The notes under the pieces were generated by a model. It was not told where the DNA came from and searched no databases. It worked only from the letters and a program-made list of their open reading frames with translations. The translations under genes were made by a program, and so were the position numbers. A DNA stretch of 64,000 nucleotides from an uncultured Tateyamaria sp. (lineage in GTDB: Bacteria > Pseudomonadota > Alphaproteobacteria > Rhodobacterales > Rhodobacteraceae), in the NCBI RefSeq assembly GCF_947503415.1, contig NZ_CANNDS010000001.1, positions 2,018,501-2,082,500 of the forward strand. Reading direction: 5' to 3'. Below are positions 31,873 to 44,474 of this stretch, piece after piece (position 1 is the first letter of the stretch; each line of letters starts with the position of its first letter).

Positions 31873-34800
31873 TCAGCCGAGCAAGATGTCGTTCGGAGAT
31901 GTATCAAGGCCGATGATCAACGGGTCGTGGTCTGACGCGGCAAACTGGCTGCCTTCGAAGAAGTTCGGATTGTTGAACGCCGAATTGTAGTTGAGCAGGT
32001 CCGGTTCATCGGCGTTGATATGCCACTCTGCCGCGCCGGTGATCATGCCGAGCATATCGCCAGATGCGATGGCGTGATCCAACGCGCCCCGTTGGCCGTC
32101 AAAGACAAAGCTGTATGCTTCGTCCTGGCCGATGAATTCGTCGATCAGATCGACAAGGTCGGGGTCGTCCGTCAGCGTCTGGACAGGATCCTCCTGCGCA
32201 TAGGCGTTGAGATCACCCATGATGATGAAGTTCGTGACGCCACCGCCCATGTAGTCGTTTTCGATCCACGTCTGCACTTCGGCGGCCGCGTCTGCGCGAA
32301 CCTGGTTCCAGAAGCCCTGGCCGTCGCCCTGATCATAGTTGGGATCGTTGATGAGCGCGTCGATATCGGCCTGCGTGATGTCCGTGCCGCCACCATCGAG
32401 GTAGTCCTGTGCGGCCTCGACCAGCCCGTCCAGCCCGCTTGGACCTTTGGACTTGAAGTGGTTCGATACGATTGTGAACGTCTCACCGGTTTCATTGTCC
32501 TCGAAAGTGGCCGCAACAGCGGGACGGTTCCTTTGGAAATCACCGACCTGGTCTCCCGTTGGCACCACCGCGTTCAGCACTTCGGCCAAGGCAAAGGTTG
32601 TGGCCGCAGAGCTTTCTTCGAACGCAAGGAAGTCAGACCCCACGACCGACACCGCGTTGGCGTCATAGACAATGCCGGTGGTGATCGCGTCGGTGCCGAT
32701 AAAGCCCGCATCGGTCGTCGGATCGACAAACGCGTAGTCTGCGCCTGATCCAGTGAGGGCCGCTTCGTCGTTCAGTGCCCCGACGAGTGTGGCAATGGCC
32801 GAGTCCGCGCCAAAGCCCCCATTCTCGATCTCTTGCAGGGCAAAAACCTCGGCCCCCGTACCGGTCATGGCTTCGACCAGTTTTTCGGTTTGGCGTTCCA
32901 GATCGCCCTCGGAGGCGGCGCCGCGTGGGTTGAGGTCGTTGGGCCCCGAACCGCCATCACCGACCAGAGTGGAGAAGTAGTTCAGCACGTTGACCGATGC
33001 GATCTGGATGTCGCCCCCGACATCCGGCGCTGTCTGTTCGCGCGCGCCGGAATTGGTGCTTTCGTCGATGTTCAGCGTGCCTTCGACCAGCATCCGGTAC
33101 TCGCCAAAGCCAAAGGTCATGATCCCCGTGGTTGGTCCGTCGATCTCCGCCCCGAGCCGGAGCGTGGGTCCGGTTTCGGTGAAGGTATCGCCCGCATCAA
33201 GGAAGCCATTGCCATTGTCGCCGGGCGACGTGTTGGGGATGTACTGGAATTCGTCGGCGTTTTGCGCAGAATTCCCGTCATCGATCAGCAGCCGGTTGTT
33301 GGCATTCTCTTCCGCCAGTGCTGCGACATCGGCGGCTTCGGTCTGGGCATCGAAAAGCTGGGTTGGTTGTGTCTGTATGCCGGCCGACACGGTGATTTCG
33401 CCAAAGCGGTCGAGATTGAAATTCTCGATCACCGTGATGTTTTCCCCATCAATCCCGCTGTCGAGGGAGAAGCGCATGCCTTCGATCGCCTCGAAGTTCT
33501 GTGCCGCGCCGCTGAGCAGAACGGTGGCTGCCGTTGGCAGGTCGTTGCCCGATGAGACAACGCGGACCGTGTCCTGACCCAATTGCGTGGTGCCAAAGAA
33601 TTCGTCGACCACACCGCGCACGACAACCAGATCGCCGACCTGTGGCTGGTTCGTCCCACCCGTGAAGACAAAGATACCTTCGGATGTCTGCGCATCGGCG
33701 TCATTGTCGGCGTCCTCTTCCTGCAGGAAATATCCGTCCGATGTGACGTAGGTGACGATTGCCTCGACCGTGACAACTTGATCGACCAGTTCGCTTTCCG
33801 CGCCATCGCCCTGAATGTCCGAGATCAGAACCCGGTCATCATCATCCAGCACCACGACAGAGGCGCTGTCCGTGGTGATATCGCCGCCCACGGGGTTGGC
33901 GAGGGTGACGGTGAAGGTTTCATCGTCTTCGATCACGGTGTCGCCCGTCACTGCAAAGGTCACCGTGGCGCAGGTTTGACCGGCGGCAAACTGAACCGTT
34001 CCCGCGGGAGGCACCCCACCGAAATCGGCGGCATCGACGTCACCACCAATGGCGAAATCAACGCTTCCTGCTTCGGACACATCGCCGTCGCGGGTAATCT
34101 CGAACGTGACTTCGGTGACGCCATCGTCGCCCTCGAACACATCGCCGCTGTCGGTCGAGACGGCATAGGTCGGTGGCTCCGGCTCTCCGACGCCGCCTTC
34201 GCCCGCGCCTTCGATCACGATGTTCTGGAAGGCGAACGCCTCGGACCCGCCATCAGTGTTGGCGGTGAATGTCAGGTTCAGGGTCGCGCCGGTGCCCTCG
34301 ATCGTAGCGCTGAGCGTTTGCAGGACGTTGGAGAGAACCTCACCCGACCCCGACAGGGTCAGCGGGTCGTCGAGGGACACAACACTGCCACCGGCAAGCG
34401 TGTAGTCAAGCGTTGCCGTATCGTCCGTGACGAAGTCAAACAACGACATCTCGGTGCCGCCATCGATGTTGTAGGTAAAGCTGAAACTGTCCGTGCCTTC
34501 GAAGTCACCCATCGCTCCGGCGTCGAGCGACAGTATCAAGTCGGTGAACCCGGAGATATCAAAAGCCCATGTCGCCGACACCGGACCGGTTGTGTCGCCG
34601 TTGACGGTATCGGTGGCGCCAAAAAACGGGTCTGTGTTGCCGTCGCTGTCGATGATGCCAAGGCTGTCACCGGGGAAGGTGGCGGCGCTGTCGTCAATCA
34701 GGCTGAAGGGTATTGATGCGCTTGTGCCGACTTGGAAGACGCCAAATCCGTCGCCCGCGCTTGAGAAAACCGGGGCGTTGTTGGTGAACGAAATCAGGTT

Positions 34801-36510
34801 CACGTCCGCTTCGCCCGTCAGCGCCGAAGCCACCACCTGCAGCACGGACGGTGCCGTATCCTCAATAACCAGATTCTGTATGGCGAACGCTTCTGACCCG
34901 CCGTCGCTGCTGCCGGTCAATGTGACGTTCAGCACGGATCCGGTTCCGGCCAAGTCTGCGCTGAGTGTCTGGAGCGTGTTGGACAAAACCTCGCCCGTGC
35001 CGGCCACGATCAGTGGATCGTCCAGAGATACTTCGGTGCCGCCGGCCAAGGTATAGGTGCCTGTTGCGTCTTCGTCAGCTACGAATTCGAACAGCACAAT
35101 GTCGGGGCCACCGTCTATGTTGTAAGTCAGCGCAAAGCTGTCGGAGCTTTCGAAATCGCCCATGGCGCCGACATCCACGCTGAGGCTGAGATCGCTCGCG
35201 CCTGAGACGTCGAAGCTCCACGTTGCTGAAACGGGGCCATCATTGTCTGCGTTCTGCGTGTCGGTCGCACCAAAGAACACATCCGTGTTGCTGTTGCTGT
35301 CGATGATGCCAAGCATGTCGCCCGGGAACACGGCGGCGCTGTCGTCGATCAGACTGAATGGAACGGAGCCTGCACCGGCCTGGAATAACCCGAACCCGTC
35401 CGCAGCACTCGAAAATGCGGGCGCCGTGTTTACGAAACCCAGCAGTCCCAGCGATGCGCTTCCGACCATGTCAAAGGCAATGGGTGTTGATCCCGTCCCG
35501 CCGGTCGGGGGCGCGGGAACCACCTGTACCGCAACGCTCCGTGTCGTGCTTTGCGTGCCGTCCGATACCGTCAGTTCAAGGTCGTAGATGTTGTCGCCAC
35601 CCTGATCGAGCGGATTTGCCAATTCAGGCGGCGCGGTAAAACTGATTGCACCTGTCGCGGCATCGATCGTGAACAGGTCCGCATCCGGGCCCGACAACGA
35701 GAAGGTCAAAGCGTCGCCATCAAGGTCGCTGGCGTCGATCACGGCCTGAACCGTGCTGTTGCCTTCGATCAGACAAATCTGGTCGACTGTCAGCAGGTTG
35801 GGCGCGTCGTTTTCGCCCGTGATGGTCACAGTCACGGTGGCGGTGTCCGTCCCGCCGCGTCCGTCGTCCACGACATAGGTGAACGTGTCCGTTGCGGTTT
35901 CACCCGCAGCCAGAAAATCAAAAAGGGTGCCCGGATCGTAGCTGATCTCGCCTCCGGCAAACTTCACTGTGGCCCCTGCCGCGCTTGTGGCCGAGACGTC
36001 TGTGATTTCGGTCGTGTCCCCGTCGAATTCACGATCATTCGCCAGCAATGTGTCTGTCGCGAGTGTCAGGGTCGCGTTTTCTGTGGTTGAAACGGCATCG
36101 TCGCCTGCAAGCACCGCGTTGTTCTGGCCGTTCAGAAACAGGGTGTAGTCGTCAGCGGCAAAGTACAGAGCCTCGATACTGTAGAGCTTGTCCCGGCCTG
36201 CATCCTCGACGTCTGGATTGGTGGAGGTGACGGTGGTCGGTCCCCAGCGGCCCTTTGTGCTGATGGAGTAATCGTCGACAGCACCTGCATATTGGGCCGT
36301 ATCGAACCCGAGCCCGCCGAAGATGCGGTCGTTTCCGGCACCGCCGTTGATCGTATCGTTGCCGAATCCGGCAAAGACCAAATCGTTACCGGCCCCCGAC
36401 GAGATTGAATCGTGCCCACCGAATGCAAAGACGACGTCCCGGCCGTCTGTTCCCGTCAGGGTATCTGCCCCAAAAGATCCAAATTCAAAGTTGCGCTGAT
36501 GACGGCCCAT
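31873..36510 (-). CDS. Giant RTX-containing extracellular nuclease (ExeM/NucH type)
   Basis: A 1,545-residue modular protein. In order: RTX repeats (about 11-73), VCBS/cadherin-like domains (130-330), two copies of a ~210-residue beta-rich domain (342-552 and 553-767), a Calx-beta domain (780-890), a nuclease-linked OB-fold (893-1060), and an endonuclease/exonuclease/phosphatase domain from about 1165 with FALQEIE, GDLNAYAQEDP and ASDHDPLII as catalytic motifs. GGGGGAA before the ATG at 36510 and the roseobacter-like RTX N-terminus decide this start over 36717. It probably degrades extracellular DNA for phosphate or biofilm release; the type I exporter is not in the window. Confidence 0.88.
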   Translation of the reverse strand: MGRHQRNFEFGSFGADTLTGTDGRDVVFAFGGHDSISSGAGNDLVFAGFGNDTINGGAGNDRIFGGLGFDTAQYAGAVDDYSISTKGRWGPTTVTSTNPDVEDAGRDKLYSIEALYFAADDYTLFLNGQNNAVLAGDDAVSTTENATLTLATDTLLANDREFDGDTTEITDVSATSAAGATVKFAGGEISYDPGTLFDFLAAGETATDTFTYVVDDGRGGTDTATVTVTITGENDAPNLLTVDQICLIEGNSTVQAVIDASDLDGDALTFSLSGPDADLFTIDAATGAISFTAPPELANPLDQGGDNIYDLELTVSDGTQSTTRSVAVQVVPAPPTGGTGSTPIAFDMVGSASLGLLGFVNTAPAFSSAADGFGLFQAGAGSVPFSLIDDSAAVFPGDMLGIIDSNSNTDVFFGATDTQNADNDGPVSATWSFDVSGASDLSLSVDVGAMGDFESSDSFALTYNIDGGPDIVLFEFVADEDATGTYTLAGGTEVSLDDPLIVAGTGEVLSNTLQTLSADLAGTGSVLNVTLTGSSDGGSEAFAIQNLVIEDTAPSVLQVVASALTGEADVNLISFTNNAPVFSSAGDGFGVFQVGTSASIPFSLIDDSAATFPGDSLGIIDSDGNTDPFFGATDTVNGDTTGPVSATWAFDISGFTDLILSLDAGAMGDFEGTDSFSFTYNIDGGTEMSLFDFVTDDTATLDYTLAGGSVVSLDDPLTLSGSGEVLSNVLQTLSATIEGTGATLNLTFTANTDGGSEAFAFQNIVIEGAGEGGVGEPEPPTYAVSTDSGDVFEGDDGVTEVTFEITRDGDVSEAGSVDFAIGGDVDAADFGGVPPAGTVQFAAGQTCATVTFAVTGDTVIEDDETFTVTLANPVGGDITTDSASVVVLDDDDRVLISDIQGDGAESELVDQVVTVEAIVTYVTSDGYFLQEEDADNDADAQTSEGIFVFTGGTNQPQVGDLVVVRGVVDEFFGTTQLGQDTVRVVSSGNDLPTAATVLLSGAAQNFEAIEGMRFSLDSGIDGENITVIENFNLDRFGEITVSAGIQTQPTQLFDAQTEAADVAALAEENANNRLLIDDGNSAQNADEFQYIPNTSPGDNGNGFLDAGDTFTETGPTLRLGAEIDGPTTGIMTFGFGEYRMLVEGTLNIDESTNSGAREQTAPDVGGDIQIASVNVLNYFSTLVGDGGSGPNDLNPRGAASEGDLERQTEKLVEAMTGTGAEVFALQEIENGGFGADSAIATLVGALNDEAALTGSGADYAFVDPTTDAGFIGTDAITTGIVYDANAVSVVGSDFLAFEESSAATTFALAEVLNAVVPTGDQVGDFQRNRPAVAATFEDNETGETFTIVSNHFKSKGPSGLDGLVEAAQDYLDGGGTDITQADIDALINDPNYDQGDGQGFWNQVRADAAAEVQTWIENDYMGGGVTNFIIMGDLNAYAQEDPVQTLTDDPDLVDLIDEFIGQDEAYSFVFDGQRGALDHAIASGDMLGMITGAAEWHINADEPDLLNYNSAFNNPNFFEGSQFAASDHDPLIIGLDTSPNDILLG

Positions 36511-36846
36511 GTCGTTTCCCCCGTAAAATAGACGTTCTTGGCTTGAGCTCTCATCTAATTGTAAAAGTTGGTGAACAGTCGAACGAGAATTTGTGTCGAG
36601 AGCGATTTCGCCCAAAGGTTGTGACTTCGGCGTCGCGAAATTGAGCAGATCGGCAAGATGTTGCCGTGGCACCTTTGGTTGACGCCCCGTTTTTCCGTTC
36701 GACTTGCGCTTTGGCAAACGCCTCCGAACGGAGTGATTTGCTGTCCATCACGTGCGGCGCGCTGTAGCGCGATTGGCACTGGCGCCGCGCGGGCCGTTTC
36801 GAAGATGGTGCTTTCCGCCCCTGCGCGGCAGGGCAGCAGGGGCCGT
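36511..36846. other. 336-bp gap between the nuclease and the phosphoribosyltransferase
   Basis: This holds the upstream region of the nuclease gene. The nuclease frame stays open for 69 more codons but reads as an unlikely Lys/Arg-rich leader. No hairpin terminator for the phosphoribosyltransferase gene, and no other gene, is evident. Confidence 0.5.
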
Positions 36847-37503
36847 CTAGCCCCGGATGGCTTCGGGACTTTTTGTGCGACCGGCTGCTGGGAATGTCCG
36901 CTCTGGCTGGTAGGTTCCGAAGCTGGACAGGGTTTGCGCGTTGCATTCCGTCTGCCACGGCGTGTTTTGCAGGACAGCTGTGACCACTTTGTAGCTTTCG
37001 CGGTAGACGTTCGTGGCTGCGTTCTCTTCCATGGCAATCGCCACCATGCCCGCCACCTTGCCGCCTTGCCGTTCGATCAGGCGAACTGCGCCGTCCATTG
37101 TCCCGCCGGTTTCGACCCATTGATCGGCAATCAACACCCGCGTGCCTTTTGCAAACGCCGGTGTGCGCATTTCCATGTCCTGTGTCCGGCCTGAGTAGTT
37201 GCCGTAGCTGACCTTGTCCGTGTCGACGCAAAGCTTGCCTGATTTGCGGATCGGCAGAAAGCCACGTCCCAATCGTGCACCCAGTGCCGCGCCAAGCACA
37301 AAACCCATGGCGTCCAGCCCGGCGACAACGTCGATGTCGTCAGCGTTCAGGTCGGCGCACAGATCATCCAGCAGATCATCGAACGCCGCCGCGTTGATGT
37401 AGATTGATGTTGGATCAAGCCACGCAAACTGAGGACCCTTTGTGTTCGGCGACATGAGCGACAAGTACCAGCGCGCGTCACGGGGGCCTTTGAGATCGGT
37501 CAT
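36847..37503 (-). CDS. Phosphoribosyltransferase (adenine PRT-like)
   Basis: A 218-residue type I PRTase. The PRPP loop reads TRVLIADQWVETGGTMDGA (about 118-136), where the usual second acidic residue of the DD pair is Gln. DDIDVVAGLDAMGFVLGAALGARLG is the conserved strand-helix before the hood, and FLPIRKSGKL the flexible-loop start. It probably attaches ribose-5-phosphate to a purine-like base. The ATG overlaps the stop of the TIM-barrel gene by four bases, so the two form an operon divergent from the LysR gene. Confidence 0.78.
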   Translation of the reverse strand: MTDLKGPRDARWYLSLMSPNTKGPQFAWLDPTSIYINAAAFDDLLDDLCADLNADDIDVVAGLDAMGFVLGAALGARLGRGFLPIRKSGKLCVDTDKVSYGNYSGRTQDMEMRTPAFAKGTRVLIADQWVETGGTMDGAVRLIERQGGKVAGMVAIAMEENAATNVYRESYKVVTAVLQNTPWQTECNAQTLSSFGTYQPERTFPAAGRTKSPEAIRG

Positions 37504-38246
37504 ACTGTTTCTCCTTGTTTGCGGGTGATCGCGAGCAACGCGTCCAGCCGCGCGGGATCGATGTTGTAGAAATCGCCCGGATAATTGATGCCCGTCGCAA
37601 CCAGAAAGCAGTTCACGAGGCCGCAATATTCCGCGGCATTCTCAGGTGTGATCCCCGAGGCAAGTGCCAGTGGCGCATCGCCGATTGCGTTCCGGAAGGT
37701 TTCCATTTTCGACAGATCCGCCTCGTGCCCTGTGGCGATGCCGGATGTTGTCACGACATCCAGATAGGGCACGGAGAGCCGGGCGGCCCGGGCGTATTGT
37801 TCTTCGGGCACGGAGCGCTGTTTCTTGAATGCGACGCCGCCAAGGTAGACGCCGGTCCAACCGCTTTGCTTGCGTATGCGCGCAATGTCCTCTGCGATGT
37901 CCTGTTGATCGACACGCTCATCTATCCGCGCGTCGTCGGCCCAATAAGCGTCGATCTGGCAGCCGTCCCCGGCCAATTGCCCGAGGATGGGAAAGGCAAT
38001 GTCGCCGGGTTGATCCAGAAAGTTCACGCCGAGCCAAAGGTCGGGGCGGGCGGCCCGAACCTCTTTGAGGATGGGCAGGAACTCTTCCATGGAGAAATCG
38101 TGATTGATGAGGAACGCCCCGGGACAGCCTGCGGCGTCCACCGTGTCGAGATTTCGCAGCGCCTGACCCGCATCCAACACGTGGATGACCGGTGTCACGA
38201 GTGTTTCCGGACCTCGCAGGGCTGTTGTGAAGTCTTGGTGTGTCAA
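37500..38246 (-). CDS. TIM-barrel protein (BtpA-like)
   Basis: A 248-residue alpha/beta barrel. PVIHVLDAGQALRNLDTV, DLWLGVNFLDQPGDIAFPIL, GVYLGGVAFKKQR and a final phosphate-type site PLALASGITPENAAEYCG and FLVATGI fit BtpA-like or related phosphate-binding barrels, which in other bacteria neighbour base or sugar genes. I start at a TTG (38246) with GGAG six bases upstream. It is coupled to the downstream PRTase, suggesting it makes or consumes a phosphoribosylated intermediate. The reaction is not known. Confidence 0.6.
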   Translation of the reverse strand: MTHQDFTTALRGPETLVTPVIHVLDAGQALRNLDTVDAAGCPGAFLINHDFSMEEFLPILKEVRAARPDLWLGVNFLDQPGDIAFPILGQLAGDGCQIDAYWADDARIDERVDQQDIAEDIARIRKQSGWTGVYLGGVAFKKQRSVPEEQYARAARLSVPYLDVVTTSGIATGHEADLSKMETFRNAIGDAPLALASGITPENAAEYCGLVNCFLVATGINYPGDFYNIDPARLDALLAITRKQGETV

Positions 38247-38323
38247 GGATGACTCCGGGGTTGCGCAGACAAGCCTAGCCAAGAAGCTGAAATTTCAAAA
38301 ATTGATAGTTGATATGTATTCAT

Positions 38324-38340
38324 AAATTTCCAAAATGGAT
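38324..38340. promoter_or_regulatory. Shared operator candidate, divergent LysR/TIM-barrel region
   Basis: AAATTTCCAAAATGGAT lies between the two divergent starts. A copy with 15 of 17 identical positions is at 39250-39266 in front of the transporter genes. It is probably the binding site of the LysR regulator encoded between them. Confidence 0.55.
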
Positions 38341-38342
38341 GT

Positions 38343-39221
38343 GTGCCAAAGAATATTCCAACCGATCTGCTTCGCAGTTTTGTGACCGTTGTCGATCTCG
38401 GCGGGTTTACCAAAGCAGCCAAGGCGCTTGGTCGCACGCAACCTGCCGTCAGCCTTCAGATCCGCAGGCTGGAGGATCTGTTGCAAACCAAGCTGATCAG
38501 GACGGCCGGACGCCAATTCAGGCTGACCGATGATGGTGTGGCTCTTGGCCCTTATGCCCGCCAGCTGTTGCGGTTGAATGATGATATCGTTGCGCATTTC
38601 GCAGATTCCGCGCTCGCGGGATGGATACGCGTGGGTGTGCCCACGGACTTTTCACATAGCTTTTTGCTTGAAGCGATATCAGAATTTGCAGCGCGCCATC
38701 CTGATGTGCGCATCGAAATCGAAAGTATGCTGTCTTCGGACCTGCGGGTCGCTTTGGCGGATGATCGGCTCGATATCACGGTCGCTCTCGTCCCTGAAGG
38801 CAACGTGCCGTACCTGGTGGAGACGACCGCGATTGAGCCGCTTTGGGCGTTGAAGAAAGACGCGTCTTTTGATCCCAAAAAACCGGTTCCCATCGTACGC
38901 CACCCAGACCCTTGCGAATACGCGTCACGGATGCGCAATGCGCTGCGAACCTCTGGCCGTGGCTGGCGGACGGTTCTGGTGTCGCGCGATGTTGAAGGGC
39001 TGCAATCCGCGGTTCTGGCCGGCTTGGGCGCCACCGCGCTGACGCCAGCCACTCTGAAACCCGGCATGCGCATAGTGCGCGACGACGAAGGCTTTCCTGC
39101 GCTTACACAATTGAGCATCGGCCTGTTTTACAAACATGCTGTGCTTCATGATGCAGGGCACGCGCTGACGCAGCACCTGCTTGATCATATCCGGAAAAAC
39201 GACAAACCGGATTTTGCATAA
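38343..39221 (+). CDS. LysR family regulator of the nucleobase module
   Basis: A 292-residue regulator with helix-turn-helix LLRSFVTVVDLGGFTKAAKA and LGRTQPAVSLQIRRLEDLLQ, then LTDDGVALGPYARQLL and an effector-binding domain. The likely start is the GTG at 38343. It sits between the TIM-barrel/PRTase pair (divergent) and the ABC transporter-deaminase genes (same strand), and near-identical 17-bp motifs flank it on both sides, so it is the likely regulator of both arms. Confidence 0.9.
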   Translation: MPKNIPTDLLRSFVTVVDLGGFTKAAKALGRTQPAVSLQIRRLEDLLQTKLIRTAGRQFRLTDDGVALGPYARQLLRLNDDIVAHFADSALAGWIRVGVPTDFSHSFLLEAISEFAARHPDVRIEIESMLSSDLRVALADDRLDITVALVPEGNVPYLVETTAIEPLWALKKDASFDPKKPVPIVRHPDPCEYASRMRNALRTSGRGWRTVLVSRDVEGLQSAVLAGLGATALTPATLKPGMRIVRDDEGFPALTQLSIGLFYKHAVLHDAGHALTQHLLDHIRKNDKPDFA

Positions 39222-39249
39222 GCAAAATTTATCGACGTATACAAACTGC

Positions 39250-39266
39250 AAATTTCCCAAATGCAT
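39250..39266. promoter_or_regulatory. Shared operator candidate, upstream of the transporter operon
   Basis: AAATTTCCCAAATGCAT, 15 of 17 identical to 38324-38340, located 94 bp before the substrate-binding protein start. It probably marks the promoter of the import operon. Confidence 0.55.
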
Positions 39267-39359
39267 CGAGTCGTGACTAACCTTGGCTGCAAGCGATGAG
39301 GGGGACGCGTGAAACATGCGCTTTGCCCCCACCATCGGTGCAATCAACAAGGAGGTCCC

Positions 39360-40487
39360 ATGTCCCAATCGAAGATGACATTCACCCGGCGCGGATTGCT
39401 GACGAGCGCTGCTGGCGCCGCGTTGACGGTACCGATGATCAACCGGGCATGGGCCCAGGACCCGGTGCAGATCAACATGCTGGCGTGGTACGGTCATGCC
39501 GAGCCGGATATCGTTGCCGAGTTCGAGGCGGAGAATAACGTCAAGTTCGTGCCCAAATACTATGCGGGCGGGGACAACATGTTGGCACTGATCGCCCAGT
39601 CCCCTCCGGGAACGTATGACCTTATCCTATCGGATGCAGAATTCGTTCAGCAACTGAACGCAGCCGGGTATATCGACGAAATGGACGCATCGCTGTTTCC
39701 ATTCGATGATTTCTACCCTGAATATCAGAACTTCCCCGGGCACTGGACCGGTGACCAGCTTTGGTCCGTCATGGTGCGGTACGGTCTGCTGGGCGTGTCC
39801 TACAACACCGACGCACTGACAGCCGAAGAAGCCATGAGTTACAATGCGTTCTGGAACCCGAAAGTCACCGGCAAGGTTGGCCATTTTGACTGGCACTTGC
39901 CGAGCCTCGGGCAGATTTCGTTGCTGAACGGTAACCGCAACCCGTCGCCGTTCGATATTGACGGTGGGGCTTGGGATGCCTTGCAGGAAAAGACGCTGAG
40001 CCTCAAACCGCAGGTCGGTGGATATTTCGACTATGGCGGCTCTTTCTCATCGCTCAAGAACGGTGAGATGCTGGCGATGTGCGGTATCGGCGACTGGATC
40101 ACAGGCGTGCTTCAGAAAGACGGCGCACCTGTGGCCAGTGTCATTCCAGAGGAGGGCGGCGTTCAATGGACCGAGAGCTATTCCATCGGCAAAGGGTCCA
40201 GCAAGCAGGACGTCGTCAACAAGTTCATCCAGTACATGCTGAGCCCGCGCGGACAGGTCAAATCGATTGAGATGGCAGCTTATCCGGGTCTGTCGCCAAC
40301 CAAGTCAGGCTGGGCCGCCATTCAGGACGCGAACCCCGCCGAGGCAGACCGTTCCGGCATGATAGAGGGCCACGCCCAAAGCCCGATCAAGCTGCTGTCC
40401 GAAGGGCGGCTGTTCTTCCGCGACATTCCCCGGCAACAAACGCTGGAGGACTGGAACGATTTCTGGTCGGAATACAAAACAGCCTGA
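39360..40487 (+). CDS. ABC transporter substrate-binding protein (PotD-like)
   Basis: A 375-residue periplasmic protein. A twin-arginine signal (TFTRRGLLTSAAGAALTVPM, cleavage near AWA) implies Tat export of a folded protein. The mature part is PotD/PotF-like: VQINMLAWYGHAEPDIVAEFE and QSPPGTYDLILSDAEFVQQL. AAGGAGG lies directly upstream of the ATG at 39360. With the deaminase in the same operon the ligand is more likely a nucleobase-like compound than a polyamine, but that is inference. Confidence 0.88.
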   Translation: MSQSKMTFTRRGLLTSAAGAALTVPMINRAWAQDPVQINMLAWYGHAEPDIVAEFEAENNVKFVPKYYAGGDNMLALIAQSPPGTYDLILSDAEFVQQLNAAGYIDEMDASLFPFDDFYPEYQNFPGHWTGDQLWSVMVRYGLLGVSYNTDALTAEEAMSYNAFWNPKVTGKVGHFDWHLPSLGQISLLNGNRNPSPFDIDGGAWDALQEKTLSLKPQVGGYFDYGGSFSSLKNGEMLAMCGIGDWITGVLQKDGAPVASVIPEEGGVQWTESYSIGKGSSKQDVVNKFIQYMLSPRGQVKSIEMAAYPGLSPTKSGWAAIQDANPAEADRSGMIEGHAQSPIKLLSEGRLFFRDIPRQQTLEDWNDFWSEYKTA

Positions 40488-40549
40488 GCTGTGGTGACAT
40501 GGCACCCGTGCCGCCCTTGTGGTGCGGGTGATTTCTGCTGAAAGACTTC

Positions 40550-41392
40550 ATGGCGAAACGAGACGCAACCTATCCCTATGTCTGGCGACTGCCGCTGCTG
40601 ATCTGGCAGGGGCTGTTTTTCGTCGGACCACTGCTTTTGATGGTCGCAATGTCCTTTTGGTTGGTGCGCAACTACCGGATGGAGCCGGATTTCGTTCTCA
40701 ACAACTGGGATCGGATGCTGAGCCGCGGCTTCTTTTGGGACGCCTATTTCGTGACCTTCTGGCGGGCAACGCTCGCGGCCACACTTGCAAGCCTGATTGC
40801 CTTCCCCGCGTCCTTTGCGTTGGCCTTTCGCACTTCGGATACGGTGCGTCGCTGGGCGGTTTTCTTTCTGATAGTCCCGTTCTTCACGTCCTATCTTGTG
40901 CGTATTTACGCGTGGCAGGTGCTTTTGGCGGGCAGTGGCCCTTTGAATGCGATTCTCGGGTTCTTTGGGTTGGGTCCATACACGATGCTCAACTCCGGTT
41001 TTGGTGTGATGGTTGGATACATGACGCTGGTGTTGCCGCTGGTTGTCATCCTGCAGACCTTCAGTCTGGCCGCAGTCGATCGGTCATTGATTGAGGCTGC
41101 GCGCAATCTTGGGGCCAATCCGCGCGAGACCCTGTTTCGCGTCATCGTACCGGCGGCCAAGGTCGGATTGATCATTGGATTTGTGTTCGCCTTCATCCTG
41201 ACCTTCGGCGATTTTGTGAGCCCGTTCTATTTGGGGGGATCGAACCCGCCGACGCTGTCCATCCTGATCGTTGATACAACCAAATCCGGACAACAATGGC
41301 CCCGTGCCGCCGTTGTCGCGGTTATGATGATTGTCACGCTGTTTGTGGTTGCCTTTGGTGCTGTCGCCGCAGCCTACAGGCGGAGGGCGTAA
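40550..41392 (+). CDS. ABC transporter permease 1 (PotB-like)
   Basis: A 280-residue inner-membrane permease with about six helices. The EAA loop reads SLIEAARNLGANPRETLFRVIVPAAKVG, the coupling helix for the ATPase. It is preceded by the binding protein and starts 63 bp after it. Confidence 0.9.
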   Translation: MAKRDATYPYVWRLPLLIWQGLFFVGPLLLMVAMSFWLVRNYRMEPDFVLNNWDRMLSRGFFWDAYFVTFWRATLAATLASLIAFPASFALAFRTSDTVRRWAVFFLIVPFFTSYLVRIYAWQVLLAGSGPLNAILGFFGLGPYTMLNSGFGVMVGYMTLVLPLVVILQTFSLAAVDRSLIEAARNLGANPRETLFRVIVPAAKVGLIIGFVFAFILTFGDFVSPFYLGGSNPPTLSILIVDTTKSGQQWPRAAVVAVMMIVTLFVVAFGAVAAAYRRRA

Positions 41393-41395
41393 GGC

Positions 41396-42175
41396 ATGCG
41401 TCTGGGAAACACCCTGTCGTGGGTCTATCTGACGGCGTTGTTTGCCTTCGTCTTTGCACCCATCGTGACGAGCATGGTGTTCTCATTCAACTCTGACCGG
41501 TTTCCGACGGTCCCGTTGGGTGAGTTTACGTTGCAATGGTATCAAACAGCCTTTTCCCGGCCCGAAGTCTGGACGGCATTTCGCAATTCACTGATTGTGG
41601 CAGCCGCAGCGGCGGCCCTGTCCACGTGCCTGGGGTTTGCGACCGCCTACACAGATTTCCGGTACGGGTTCCGCTTCAAGAACGCATACCTGGCGCTGGC
41701 CTTGCTGCCGCCCACCATTCCGCTGGTCATCATGGGGCTGGCGATGTTGGCGTGGCTGTCCCGGCTGGGGCTGTCAGGCACATTGCCGGGTATCATTATT
41801 GCCCACACAGTTATGGGAGCGCCCTTTGCCATGGCGATTTGCAGATTGCGCTTGCAGCAGATGGACCCGTCGTTGGAGGCCGCAGCCTGGAACCTTGGTG
41901 CGTCCCCTTGGCGGGCGATGCGTTCCGTCGTGATACCGTTTTGCGCGCCTGCCATCATCTCGGCCTACTGCCTGACGGCGGCGGTCAGCTTTGATGAATT
42001 CATTGTCGCGTGGTTCGTCTCGGGCCTGAACAAAACGGTGCCGGTGATGATCCTTGAAATCCTTCAAGGCAATGTCGATCCACAGATCAATGCCATCGGG
42101 ACCGTCGTGTTTCTGACGTCGATGACCCTCGTCATCGTGGCACAACTTCTTATCCTCAGAAAGTCCGCGAAATGA
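41396..42175 (+). CDS. ABC transporter permease 2 (PotC-like)
   Basis: A 259-residue permease with about six helices and EAA loop SLEAAAWNLGASPWRAMRSVVIP. It begins four bases after permease 1 and its stop overlaps the ATPase start by four bases. It forms the membrane heterodimer with permease 1. Confidence 0.9.
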   Translation: MRLGNTLSWVYLTALFAFVFAPIVTSMVFSFNSDRFPTVPLGEFTLQWYQTAFSRPEVWTAFRNSLIVAAAAAALSTCLGFATAYTDFRYGFRFKNAYLALALLPPTIPLVIMGLAMLAWLSRLGLSGTLPGIIIAHTVMGAPFAMAICRLRLQQMDPSLEAAAWNLGASPWRAMRSVVIPFCAPAIISAYCLTAAVSFDEFIVAWFVSGLNKTVPVMILEILQGNVDPQINAIGTVVFLTSMTLVIVAQLLILRKSAK

Positions 42176-43227
42176 CCGAAGCTGATCCACTTGTCGACTT
42201 CTCGGGTATCAAGAAAAGCTATGGCCCGTTCGAGGCCGTCAAAGCGCTCGACCTCACCATCGGGCGTGGTGAGTTCGTGGCCATCATGGGGCCTTCGGGC
42301 TGTGGCAAGACAACAAGCTTGCGCATGTTGGCGGGCTTGGAAACGCCAACCGCCGGGACCATACGCATTGATGGGAAGGCGATGAACAACGTGTCTGTGC
42401 ACGACCGCGACACGCCGCTGGTCTGGCAATCCCTGGCCTTGTTTCCGTTTCTGAACGTCAAGGAAAATGTCGAGTTCGGCCTGAAAATGCGCGGGGTCCC
42501 CGCCAGCGAGCGTGACGCCCGCGCAATGTTGTGGTTGGACCGCATGGGGCTCAAAGGGTTCGAAACACGCCGGATCGACGACCTGTCCGGCGGCCAGCGA
42601 CAACGCGTTGCATTGGCGCGGTCGCTTGTGACCGAACCTCAGATGCTGTTGCTGGACGAGCCGTTGTCCGCGCTTGATGCGCATCTGGTCATTCGGATGC
42701 AGGGTGTTCTGACCAAGTTGCAGAAAGAGCTGGGGATCACCTTTGTCTACGTGACCCATTCGCAATCCGAAGCCTTCGCGATGGCGGACCGGGTTGTCAT
42801 CATGGGGCAGGGTGAAATCGCGCAGATCGGCACACCCCAAGAGATATTTCGCGCGCCTAAAAACCGGTTTGTGGCTGAGTTCGTCGGACGCAACAATATT
42901 CTGGAAGGGACCGTGACCGGCGGCATCATCATAATCGACGGTACAGAGTATCCATTGCCCGGTGCCACGGAAGGCCACACGGAGATTGTGGTGGCCGCTG
43001 ATCGTATGGAAATACATGATACCCCGCCTTCGACAGCCGCCATCCCGGCCGATTTCGTATCGGAGGAATTCGCGGGCACAGGTATCATCTGCTATTTCGA
43101 AGGACCGGGCGGCGAGGAACTGAAGGCGCAAGTGAACGAGACACAGCTTGCGGCATTGTCGCCGGAACCCGGCCAGCGGTTCTGGCTGAGTTGGTCGCCC
43201 GATGCAGCCCATGTGATGGAGGATTAG
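42172..43227 (+). CDS. ABC transporter ATP-binding protein (PotA-like)
   Basis: A 351-residue ATPase: Walker A GPSGCGKTTS (about 40-49), signature LSGGQRQRVALARSL, Walker B MLLLDEPLSALD and switch His in TFVYVTHSQSEAF. A C-terminal TOBE domain (from about residue 245) is present, as in importers of the polyamine/thiamine/iron group. It energises uptake by the two permeases. It overlaps permease 2 by four bases. Confidence 0.93.
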   Translation: MTEADPLVDFSGIKKSYGPFEAVKALDLTIGRGEFVAIMGPSGCGKTTSLRMLAGLETPTAGTIRIDGKAMNNVSVHDRDTPLVWQSLALFPFLNVKENVEFGLKMRGVPASERDARAMLWLDRMGLKGFETRRIDDLSGGQRQRVALARSLVTEPQMLLLDEPLSALDAHLVIRMQGVLTKLQKELGITFVYVTHSQSEAFAMADRVVIMGQGEIAQIGTPQEIFRAPKNRFVAEFVGRNNILEGTVTGGIIIIDGTEYPLPGATEGHTEIVVAADRMEIHDTPPSTAAIPADFVSEEFAGTGIICYFEGPGGEELKAQVNETQLAALSPEPGQRFWLSWSPDAAHVMED

Positions 43228-43232
43228 CGCAT

Positions 43233-44474
43233 ATGACTTTTGATCTGCTCGTCAAAAACGGTCTTCTGCCCGATGGCCGCACGGTCGATATCGCAATTGC
43301 GGATGGTATGATCGCGGCAGTGGAACCCGACATCACTGCTGACGCCGCTCAGGTCGTTGACGCAGGTGGTAAATTGGTGAGCCCGCCATTTGTCGACGCG
43401 CACTTCCACATGGATGCGACACAAAGCTACGGCACACCGCGGGTCAACATGTCGGGCACGTTGCTCGAGGGGATCGCGCTTTGGGGTGAGTTGAAAAAAC
43501 TGCAATCCCGAGAGGACATTGTGGCCCGTGCCCTGAGCTATTGCCGTGAGGCGATTGGGAAAGGCGTACTGGCGATCCGCAGCCATGTGGACGTCACCGA
43601 CAAGAGCTTTCAAACCGTTGAGGCATTGCTTGAGGTGCGTGACCATGTGCGCGACGTACTGGACCTGCAGCTTGTCGCCTTTCCGCAAGACGGCTGGTTC
43701 AGGTCCGCGACAGCGGAAGCGAACGTTGTGCGTGCACTGGATGCGGGTGTGGATGTGGTTGGCGGCATCCCGCATTTCGAACGGACGATGACCGATGGTG
43801 CTGCGGCAGTGCGGGCCGCCTGTGAACTGGCGGCGGACCGTGGTCTGATGGTTGATCTGCACTGCGATGAAAGTGATGACCCGCTCAGCCGCCACATTGA
43901 AACATTGGCATCCGAGACGATCCGCTGTGGGCTTCAGGGCCGCACGACCGGATCGCATCTGACGTCGATGCATTCCATGGACAACTACTATGTAGCCAAG
44001 CTGCTGCCGTTGATCGCAGAGGCGCGCGTGTCGGCGATCCCCAACCCACTGATCAACATCACCTTGCAGGGGCGCATGGACAGCTACCCGAAACGGCGCG
44101 GCATGACGCGTGTGCCGGAGTTGCTGGCGGCCGGGGTTACTGCGGCCTTTGGACAGGATTGCGTGCGGGATCCTTGGTATCCGCTGGGGTCCGGCGACAT
44201 GTTGGACGTCGCCCATATGGGTCTGCACGTTGCCCATATGACCGCACCCGATGCCATGCGAACCGCGTTTGACATGGTGACCCGAACGCCAGCGCAGATC
44301 ATGGGGATGGAATTTGGTCTGGAACCCGGAAAGCGGGGCAGTCTTGTGGTTCTGGATGCGATGGATCGGATAGATGCCTTGCGCCTGCGCCCTGCACGCC
44401 TTTTCGTCGTCTCAAACGGGCGCGTGGTGGCGCGGACTAATCCTTCGGTCACGGATCTGACGGTCGACTTCTGA
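43233..44474 (+). CDS. codA: Cytosine deaminase-like amidohydrolase
   Basis: A 413-residue metal-dependent amidohydrolase collinear with E. coli CodA: PPFVDAHFHMDATQSYG (His57, His59), VAFPQDGWF (Gln152), VDLHCDESDD (His210, Glu213), GSHLTSMHSMDN (His242) and AFGQDCVRDPWYPLG (Asp309). By my alignment the residue after the catalytic Asp is Cys310, where E. coli has Asp314, a substrate-contacting residue, so cytosine itself may not be the substrate. I start at 43233 with GGAGG upstream. It is the last gene of the import operon. Confidence 0.82.
   Translation: MTFDLLVKNGLLPDGRTVDIAIADGMIAAVEPDITADAAQVVDAGGKLVSPPFVDAHFHMDATQSYGTPRVNMSGTLLEGIALWGELKKLQSREDIVARALSYCREAIGKGVLAIRSHVDVTDKSFQTVEALLEVRDHVRDVLDLQLVAFPQDGWFRSATAEANVVRALDAGVDVVGGIPHFERTMTDGAAAVRAACELAADRGLMVDLHCDESDDPLSRHIETLASETIRCGLQGRTTGSHLTSMHSMDNYYVAKLLPLIAEARVSAIPNPLINITLQGRMDSYPKRRGMTRVPELLAAGVTAAFGQDCVRDPWYPLGSGDMLDVAHMGLHVAHMTAPDAMRTAFDMVTRTPAQIMGMEFGLEPGKRGSLVVLDAMDRIDALRLRPARLFVVSNGRVVARTNPSVTDLTVDF

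Follow-up and report, generated by a model that had tools for sequence, protein, structure and literature searches.

A barrel-phosphoribosyltransferase pair as a candidate stand-in for creatininase in a conserved importer cassette of Rhodobacteraceae

Introduction

The closest counterparts of the cassette described here are the creatininase-type operons of Rhizobiales, Paracoccus, and Microvirga (for example Shinella, L172; Paracoccus aminovorans, L173; and genome G010, L200; L and G handles denote loci and genomes of this analysis). The cassette lies in a 64,000-nucleotide stretch of an uncultured Tateyamaria sp. genome (assembly GCF_947503415.1, contig NZ_CANNDS010000001.1, positions 2,018,501 to 2,082,500; hereafter the window) and comprises a BtpA-like TIM barrel gene coupled to a phosphoribosyltransferase (PRTase) gene, a LysR-type regulator, a four-gene Pot-like ATP-binding cassette (ABC) importer, and a CodA-like deaminase. 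It shares with the creatininase-type operons an orthologous importer and LysR in the same order, a divergent enzyme unit, and a similar operator-like motif in the gap; however, those operons carry creatininase, whereas the window carries the barrel-PRTase pair and an added CodA-like deaminase, with creatinase encoded elsewhere in the genome.

The individual enzymes also have described relatives. In UMP synthase, a PRTase is joined to a ribotide-binding barrel, an architecture analogous to that of the pair in combining a PRTase with a phosphate-binding barrel; here, however, the order is barrel-PRTase, the PRTase is adenine phosphoribosyltransferase (APRT)-like rather than orotate phosphoribosyltransferase-like, the context is catabolic, and the analogy does not establish a decarboxylase role for the window barrel. 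The BtpA/SgcQ family (PF03437, TIGR00259) is of the same barrel class and resembles the window barrel over its C-terminal third, but the latter falls under the curated cut-offs and is tied to a PRTase; a characterized activity of BtpA relatives was looked for in this analysis and none was found. The CodA cytosine/creatinine deaminase family (amidohydrolase superfamily, PRK07572) matches the window deaminase over its full length and above the cut-off, but Asp314 of Escherichia coli CodA is replaced by Cys. In the portions of the literature consulted, CodA homologs are described as creatinine deaminases, with CodA degrading creatinine in Corynebacterium (PMC8864220), and CodA is read as creatinine-degrading in sponge metagenomes (PMC6742649).

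Results

A conserved module without creatininase

The divergent arrangement named in the original prediction, with barrel and PRTase genes coupled by a four-base ATGA overlap, a LysR regulator, four importer genes, and a CodA-like deaminase, was confirmed gene by gene and position by position (Table 1). It was found again in dozens of genomes and is therefore beyond chance. The barrel was detected at E<1e-80 in 10 of 248 same-family genomes, and 31 loci were located in named genomes, mostly Rhodobacteraceae with some gammaproteobacterial metagenome-assembled genomes. Carriers that can be cultured include Thetidibacter halocola and Rhodovulum sp. P5. Gene content was counted, as matches of at least 35% identity, in 44 barrel-bearing stretches that exclude the window (a 45th, L145, comes from the other end of the G187 contig). 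The PRTase was matched in 43 of the 44 and the importer's solute-binding protein (SBP) in 38, so that the neighborhood search upheld the idea of one module; the cassette is real and conserved. The remaining genes were more variable: CodA-like deaminase in 17 stretches, a yeast FCY1-type cytosine deaminase in five, a PuuE/PgdA-like hydrolase in 15, and creatinase in three. Creatininase was found in none of the 44 stretches (none of 45 with L145), nor in a search of the source genome (G000). Five loci (L051, L058, L116, L158, and L159) combined the pair with a full importer in stretches lacking deaminase, PuuE-like hydrolase, and creatinase alike.

Exchange of the pair with creatininase

The window contains the orthologous LysR-SBP-permease-permease-ATPase unit of creatinine operons. 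Its SBP was 59-65% identical to SBPs beside creatininase, its LysR 43-46% identical to those of creatininase-type cassettes, and permease 1, permease 2, and the ATPase 55-62%, 55-65%, and 51-56% identical, respectively, to orthologs in cassettes with both creatininase and creatinase. Among 23 plasmid records recovered with the SBP at E<=1e-40, 14 had a creatininase within 3 kb by coordinate match (annotation was read for ten plasmid regions, two of them without creatininase). Thirteen records had an SBP of at least 59% identity; 12 of these had creatininase within 3 kb, one (Rhodovulum sp. P5) had barrel-PRTase, and none had both. Within the family, the importer (E<=1e-90) was present in 20 of 223 genomes, ten with the barrel, five with creatininase (G010, G035, G063, G106, and G116), and none with both. 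All ten barrel genomes carried the importer (P 2.7e-12), as did five of the eight creatininase genomes among the 223 (P 1.7e-4).

Creatininase was divergent from the LysR-importer unit in seven loci (L172, L173, L174, L179, L200, L210, and L211), from Shinella, Paracoccus (two), Mesorhizobium (two), Microvirga, and same-family genome G010 (L200), and so takes the place held by the barrel-PRTase unit in the window. In L175, L201, and L202 (Leisingera caerulea, G035, and G106) it lay between LysR and SBP on the importer's strand, and in Azoarcus and Ancylobacter on that strand but further off. Creatinase, 60-64% identical to a barrel-linked creatinase, directly accompanied nine of these loci, Ancylobacter excepted. 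Sarcosine oxidase (L179, L211) or HyuA/HyuB (L176, L177, L200) flanked some, and L177 was also flanked by isochorismatase and urease accessory genes; the simple rhizobial and Paracoccus cassettes held only creatininase, creatinase, regulator, and importer. In G008, creatininase was directly beside a CodA-like gene. Gene content, orthology, and the exchange with creatininase are direct observations.

In a second type of creatininase island (L157, L167, L207, and L208), the importer was more distant (measured SBP identities 46-49%), and creatininase was joined by a further amidohydrolase gene and one for an agmatinase-family ureohydrolase; the CodA-like gene was retained in two of these islands, and some had GuaD-like deaminase, short-chain dehydrogenase/reductase (SDR), PuuE-like, or Rieske genes. 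This type possibly serves a more complex cyclic guanidine. Two of its creatininases were scanned and scored 321 and 325 bits, above the TIGR04448 cut-off of 235.

In a maximum-likelihood tree built quickly from 60 binding proteins (L039 and L122 were dropped as short; Shimodaira-Hasegawa-like approximate likelihood ratio support only), a minimum of three switches between the labels 'barrel' and 'creatininase' was required. The SBPs of G077 (barrel) and G010 (creatininase) were sisters (support 98) and 76% identical, compared with 61% between G077 and the window, and L055 (barrel) was placed with the more distant importer type.

The barrel-PRTase pair

The window PRTase passed the general Pribosyltran cut-off but failed the APRT equivalogs (best 101 vs 170 bits; laxest model 97 vs 125). 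The phosphoribosyl pyrophosphate (PRPP) loop of PRTases canonically has an acidic pair (DD) ahead of TGGT; the corresponding window motif is LIADQWVETGGT, and all 31 fused proteins of set A3 had D-Q-W-V/I-E-T-G-G-T, retaining TGGT with Gln as the second acid. The barrel scored 28.7 bits against the PF03437 (BtpA) cut-off of 30 and 33.3 against 153.4 for TIGR00259, and is listed under PF03437.22 in a newer precomputed Pfam. An AlphaFold2 model of high predicted confidence (pLDDT 93.5) most closely resembled phosphate-binding barrels. Barrel and PRTase formed a single open reading frame (ORF) in nine, mostly gammaproteobacterial loci (L056, L057, L059-L063, L158, and L159), located at 1494-2861 in L059, and a PRPP synthase gene adjoined the PRTase in seven (L047, L048, L052, L054, L097, L115, and L116). 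Environmental relatives of the pair were numerous: of 8000 candidates scored, 969 proteins reached E<=1e-40, and the 120 matches listed were 391-496 aa long, near the 455-aa fused query.

The barrel, PRTase, and PRPP synthase unit of L097 (11953-14311) lies on a Pseudohalocynthiibacter plasmid near IS5-type transposases and without the importer. More distant barrel homologs (29-37%; Table 1), with no PRTase gene beside them, occur on large plasmids of Variovorax, Bosea, Delftia, and Pseudomonas; on the Variovorax plasmid the homolog is directly followed by a gene for a barrel resembling phosphoribosylanthranilate isomerase (PRAI).

The importer and its operator-like motif

The binding protein begins with a twin-arginine-like sequence, judged by eye. 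The original prediction called the importer Pot-type, and the four genes do resemble that system, with PotD/PotF the nearest PDB sequences to the binding protein; SBP and permeases fell far below the polyamine (PotABCD) equivalog cut-offs, however (62.8 vs 582, 102 vs 348, and 158 vs 326 bits), and the name describes resemblance only. In alignment with PotD, the residues that we take to be its polyamine ligands were replaced (D168 by W, E171 by S, W229 by I, and D257 by E), with two of three acidic residues lost, so that polyamine specificity is unlikely. With one aromatic and one acidic residue, the site could accommodate a lone cationic amidine, creatinine being an example. The motifs WYGHAEP, GHFDWHLP, FDYGG, GIGDW, and TES were largely common to barrel- and creatininase-type importers and may line the ligand site. 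Three importer relatives (L178, L206, and L209; SBP 50-58%) lie beside amidase and urea-carboxylase-associated genes, two of them (L178 and L209) also beside a polysaccharide-deacetylase-type gene, suggesting another ligand class.

The motif AAATTGATNNTTNNTATGNNNNCATAA had one match in the window and none in 100 shuffles. Its exact core, ATTGAT...CATAA, occurred in 13 distinct loci (window included), always in the barrel/LysR gap, and nowhere outside that gap in the 211 fetched stretches. A degenerate form scored 11-16 of 19 in ten creatininase/LysR gaps, with eight of the ten at 13 or more, a score reached by 9 of 600 220-base stretches drawn at random from these loci. The simple reading of these matches is a common operator for both cassette types.

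Deaminase and accessory enzymes

The deaminase scored 706 bits against the PRK07572 'cytosine deaminase' cut-off of 438, confirming it as a CodA homolog. Its FGQDCVRDP aligned with FGHDDVFDP of 1k6w, placing Cys (residue 310) at the CodA Asp314 place, as in all listed relatives except L069/L122 (Ser; one genome). The consulted part of PMC6186785 links this position (numbered Asp315 there) to 5-methylcytosine activity. The same Cys occurred in 63-69% identical CodA paralogs outside the cassette, and the residue therefore does not identify the ligand. Nine loci of those paralogs (L146-L153 among them) share a BMP/nucleoside-type ABC importer, named from a sub-cut-off match and reading, and are probably a separate nucleobase or nucleoside unit.

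The FCY1-type gene replaced the CodA-like gene in five loci, the two never occurring together; one member scanned matched yeast cytosine deaminase at 4e-42, compared with 5e-16 for TadA types. It was present in 13 of 248 family genomes and in four of the ten barrel genomes (P 0.0008, post hoc). The best PDB match of the PuuE-like gene was a polysaccharide-deacetylase-fold protein, with PuuE allantoinase weaker; because allantoinase chemistry is hydantoin hydrolysis, our guess, by analogy, is that it may act on N-methylhydantoin.

Creatinase directly followed barrel-PRTase in L059 (PDB 1chm, 1.7e-175; its longest ORF and the fusion share 4 bases, and a second gene caller set a later start), as did a 55% relative in L037 and a 95% copy in L060. 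The source genome encodes a creatinase, 56% identical to that of L059, outside the window (G000:C1:1561347-1562549). Creatinase was found in 37 of 41 barrel genomes (36 of 40 when the duplicates G166 and G663 are taken as one genome) and in 165 of 248 family genomes, including all ten barrel genomes of that set (P 0.015). The source genome's creatinase (in L123, 10345-12688, G000 C1) adjoins an amidinotransferase-like gene, which matches the arginine-deiminase fold weakly; this neighbor hints at the metabolism of guanidino acids.

Both flanks of the cassette look unrelated to it. One holds a 1614-aa ORF (31873-36717, - strand) whose product matches RTX, bacterial Ig/cadherin-like, and Calx-beta domains and, below the cut-off, an exo/endonuclease-phosphatase domain at its C terminus; it may be a secreted nuclease or phosphatase. 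The other holds two ORFs without a Pfam family.

Table 1. Features of the cassette (window coordinates) and distant barrel homologs (coordinates within the locus named)
Feature	Coordinates	Strand	Basis or remark
APRT-like PRTase, partner of barrel	36847..37503	-	Pribosyltran 43.7 bits, motif LIADQWVETGGT
BtpA-like TIM barrel, 248 aa from TTG	37500..38246	-	alternative TTG start at 38282
Operator-like motif AAATTGATNNTTNNTATGNNNNCATAA, barrel/LysR gap	38299..38325	+	one match in window, 0 in 100 shuffles
LysR-type regulator	38343..39221	+	HTH_1, LysR_substrate
Secreted SBP, predicted creatinine-class ligand	39360..40487	+	SBP_bac_8
Importer permease 1	40550..41392	+	BPD_transp_1
Importer permease 2	41396..42175	+	BPD_transp_1
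Importer ATPase	42172..43227	+	ABC_tran, TOBE_2
CodA-like amidohydrolase, predicted creatinine deaminase	43233..44474	+	PRK07572
Distant barrel homolog, L098	9992-11394
Distant barrel homolog, L099	10001-10732
Distant barrel homolog, L100	9971-10708
Distant barrel homolog, L101	9989-10891
Distant barrel homolog, L102	10007-10675

Discussion

Proposed function

On balance, and with modest confidence, we favor a module that imports and degrades creatinine or a very close cyclic guanidine, in which the pair is a non-homologous stand-in for creatininase, perhaps a PRPP-dependent one. The substrate class is read from context; the substrate itself, the sequence of reactions, and the whole of the chemistry that follows are inferred. 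The LysR-controlled importer would take in creatinine as a nitrogen source for two intracellular routes, as in classical creatinine users. In one, the CodA-like enzyme would convert creatinine to N-methylhydantoin, whose ring would be opened in some relatives by the PuuE-like hydrolase; in the other, the pair would replace creatininase in acting on creatinine towards creatine, which the creatinase encoded elsewhere would cleave to sarcosine and urea. For this second route, the likeliest chemistry would be transfer of 5-phosphoribosyl from PRPP onto the ring by the PRTase, after which the phosphate-binding barrel would open the ring and/or free ribose 5-phosphate. The phosphoribosylated intermediate of the original prediction stays plausible, given the PRPP-loop-like motif and the PRPP synthase adjacent in seven loci, but a nucleobase as the ligand is not supported. 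The importer and deaminase would be ordinary given the creatinine link, and the new part would be the enzyme pair.

The most specific version, in which the pair is a new PRPP-dependent creatinine opener, the PRTase forming phosphoribosyl-creatinine, the barrel hydrolyzing it to ribose 5-phosphate and either creatine or a ribosylated form, and the adjacent PRPP synthase recharging the sugar, is tentative and, taken by itself, doubtful.

Several observations weigh against the favored module. Creatinine hydrolysis needs no energy, which makes spending PRPP on it odd; the outlay calls for a reason, such as uptake at trace levels or another product. The PRPP loop departs from the canonical form in having DQ instead of DD, and the barrel is below every family cut-off in the Pfam/NCBIfam scans of this analysis. 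The importer was not seen in six of the 44 barrel stretches, partly from contig ends; in one genome (G643, L046) the pair stood without an importer in the stretch seen. Five importer genomes (G022, G086, G128, G200, and G212) lacked both barrel and creatininase in the part of the locus covered; the G212 contig stops just past the ATPase, the G022 stretch starts 3 kb upstream, and the importer of G128 neighbors amidase and urea-carboxylase-associated genes. A creatininase-like gene occurred elsewhere in 4 of 43 distinct barrel genomes (44 handles, G166 and G663 being one genome), with identities to the L157 protein of 91% (G643), 48% (G666), 41% (G646), and 33% (G659). Two of the three swaps in the tree depend on L055 and L116 (=G077), both marked as long branches, which leaves the precise swap count uncertain. 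The swapping of two unrelated cytosine-deaminase families (CodA and FCY1) would also fit a pyrimidine. Creatinase in all ten barrel genomes is weak evidence because the gene is common in the family, and the L060 creatinase copy has an internal stop.

Alternative explanations

Of the other explanations, the strongest, although we judge it unlikely, keeps creatinine as the substrate and has the pair act later, on N-methylhydantoin in place of ATP-dependent HyuAB, or make a ribosylated product or signal. The CodA-like deaminase (window and 17 of 44 stretches) would supply N-methylhydantoin to the pair, for which PRPP-driven opening would be sensible, the classical hydrolase needing ATP according to the consulted part of PMC6742649. 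The five stretches with pair and full importer lack the deaminase, however (a CodA-like gene elsewhere in G077 qualifies one of them, L116), and the creatininase-type locus L177 has deaminase and HyuAB yet no pair.

Import of a nucleobase (cytosine, 5-methylcytosine, or similar), with deamination and salvage as nucleotide, was the original prediction and now seems improbable. The CodA-like enzyme passes PRK07572 and carries Cys where CodA has Asp314, a site that the consulted part of PMC6186785 connects with 5-methylcytosine activity, and the substitute enzyme is of the yeast cytosine deaminase type. But the importer's orthologs go with creatininase and creatinase, CodA homologs are known creatinine deaminases (PMC8864220, in the part consulted), and the other CodA paralogs of the family (67-69%) have the same Cys, which is hence not specific to the cassette, and sit with the different BMP/nucleoside-type importer (a weak match). 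The accompanying remark that such an importer is non-standard for a cytosine operon was borne out.

Slightly less probable still is another cyclic guanidine or N-methyl heterocycle as the ligand, for example glycocyamidine or an aminoimidazole from sponges, on which the creatininase and creatinase homologs would also act. The extra amidohydrolase, ureohydrolase, and occasional Rieske/SDR genes of the second island type exceed the needs of creatinine, and several barrel loci belong to bins that carry the names of what we take to be sponge samples; against this, the two second-type creatininases pass TIGR04448, and the simple rhizobial and Paracoccus cassettes encode nothing beyond creatininase, creatinase, regulator, and importer. 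Finally, an ordinary polyamine importer lying by chance beside unrelated enzymes is suggested by PotD/PotF as closest PDB sequences but is highly improbable given the equivalog score, the replaced D168, E171, and W229, and a conserved co-occurrence of importer and pair that contradicts chance neighborhood.

Implications

Creatinine is a nitrogen waste of animal muscle, and animals and sponges supply nitrogen in the form of creatine and creatinine. If the pair is indeed a PRPP-dependent opener, ring opening would be ATP-driven and effective at trace creatinine, the pair would open a third route into creatinine, with no relation to creatininase or deamination, and this branch of BtpA-like barrels would gain its first function. 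The available portion of PMC3141670 reports that Roseobacter litoralis grows on creatinine and that the first-step gene was not found in its genome. A non-homologous, possibly PRPP-driven replacement of creatininase could fill such missing-first-enzyme gaps in this group. It could also give a function to the orphan barrel/PRTase family, supply creatinine assays with enzymes and a binding protein, and set right the labels 'spermidine/putrescine transporter', 'cytosine deaminase', and 'adenine phosphoribosyltransferase' on some such genes.

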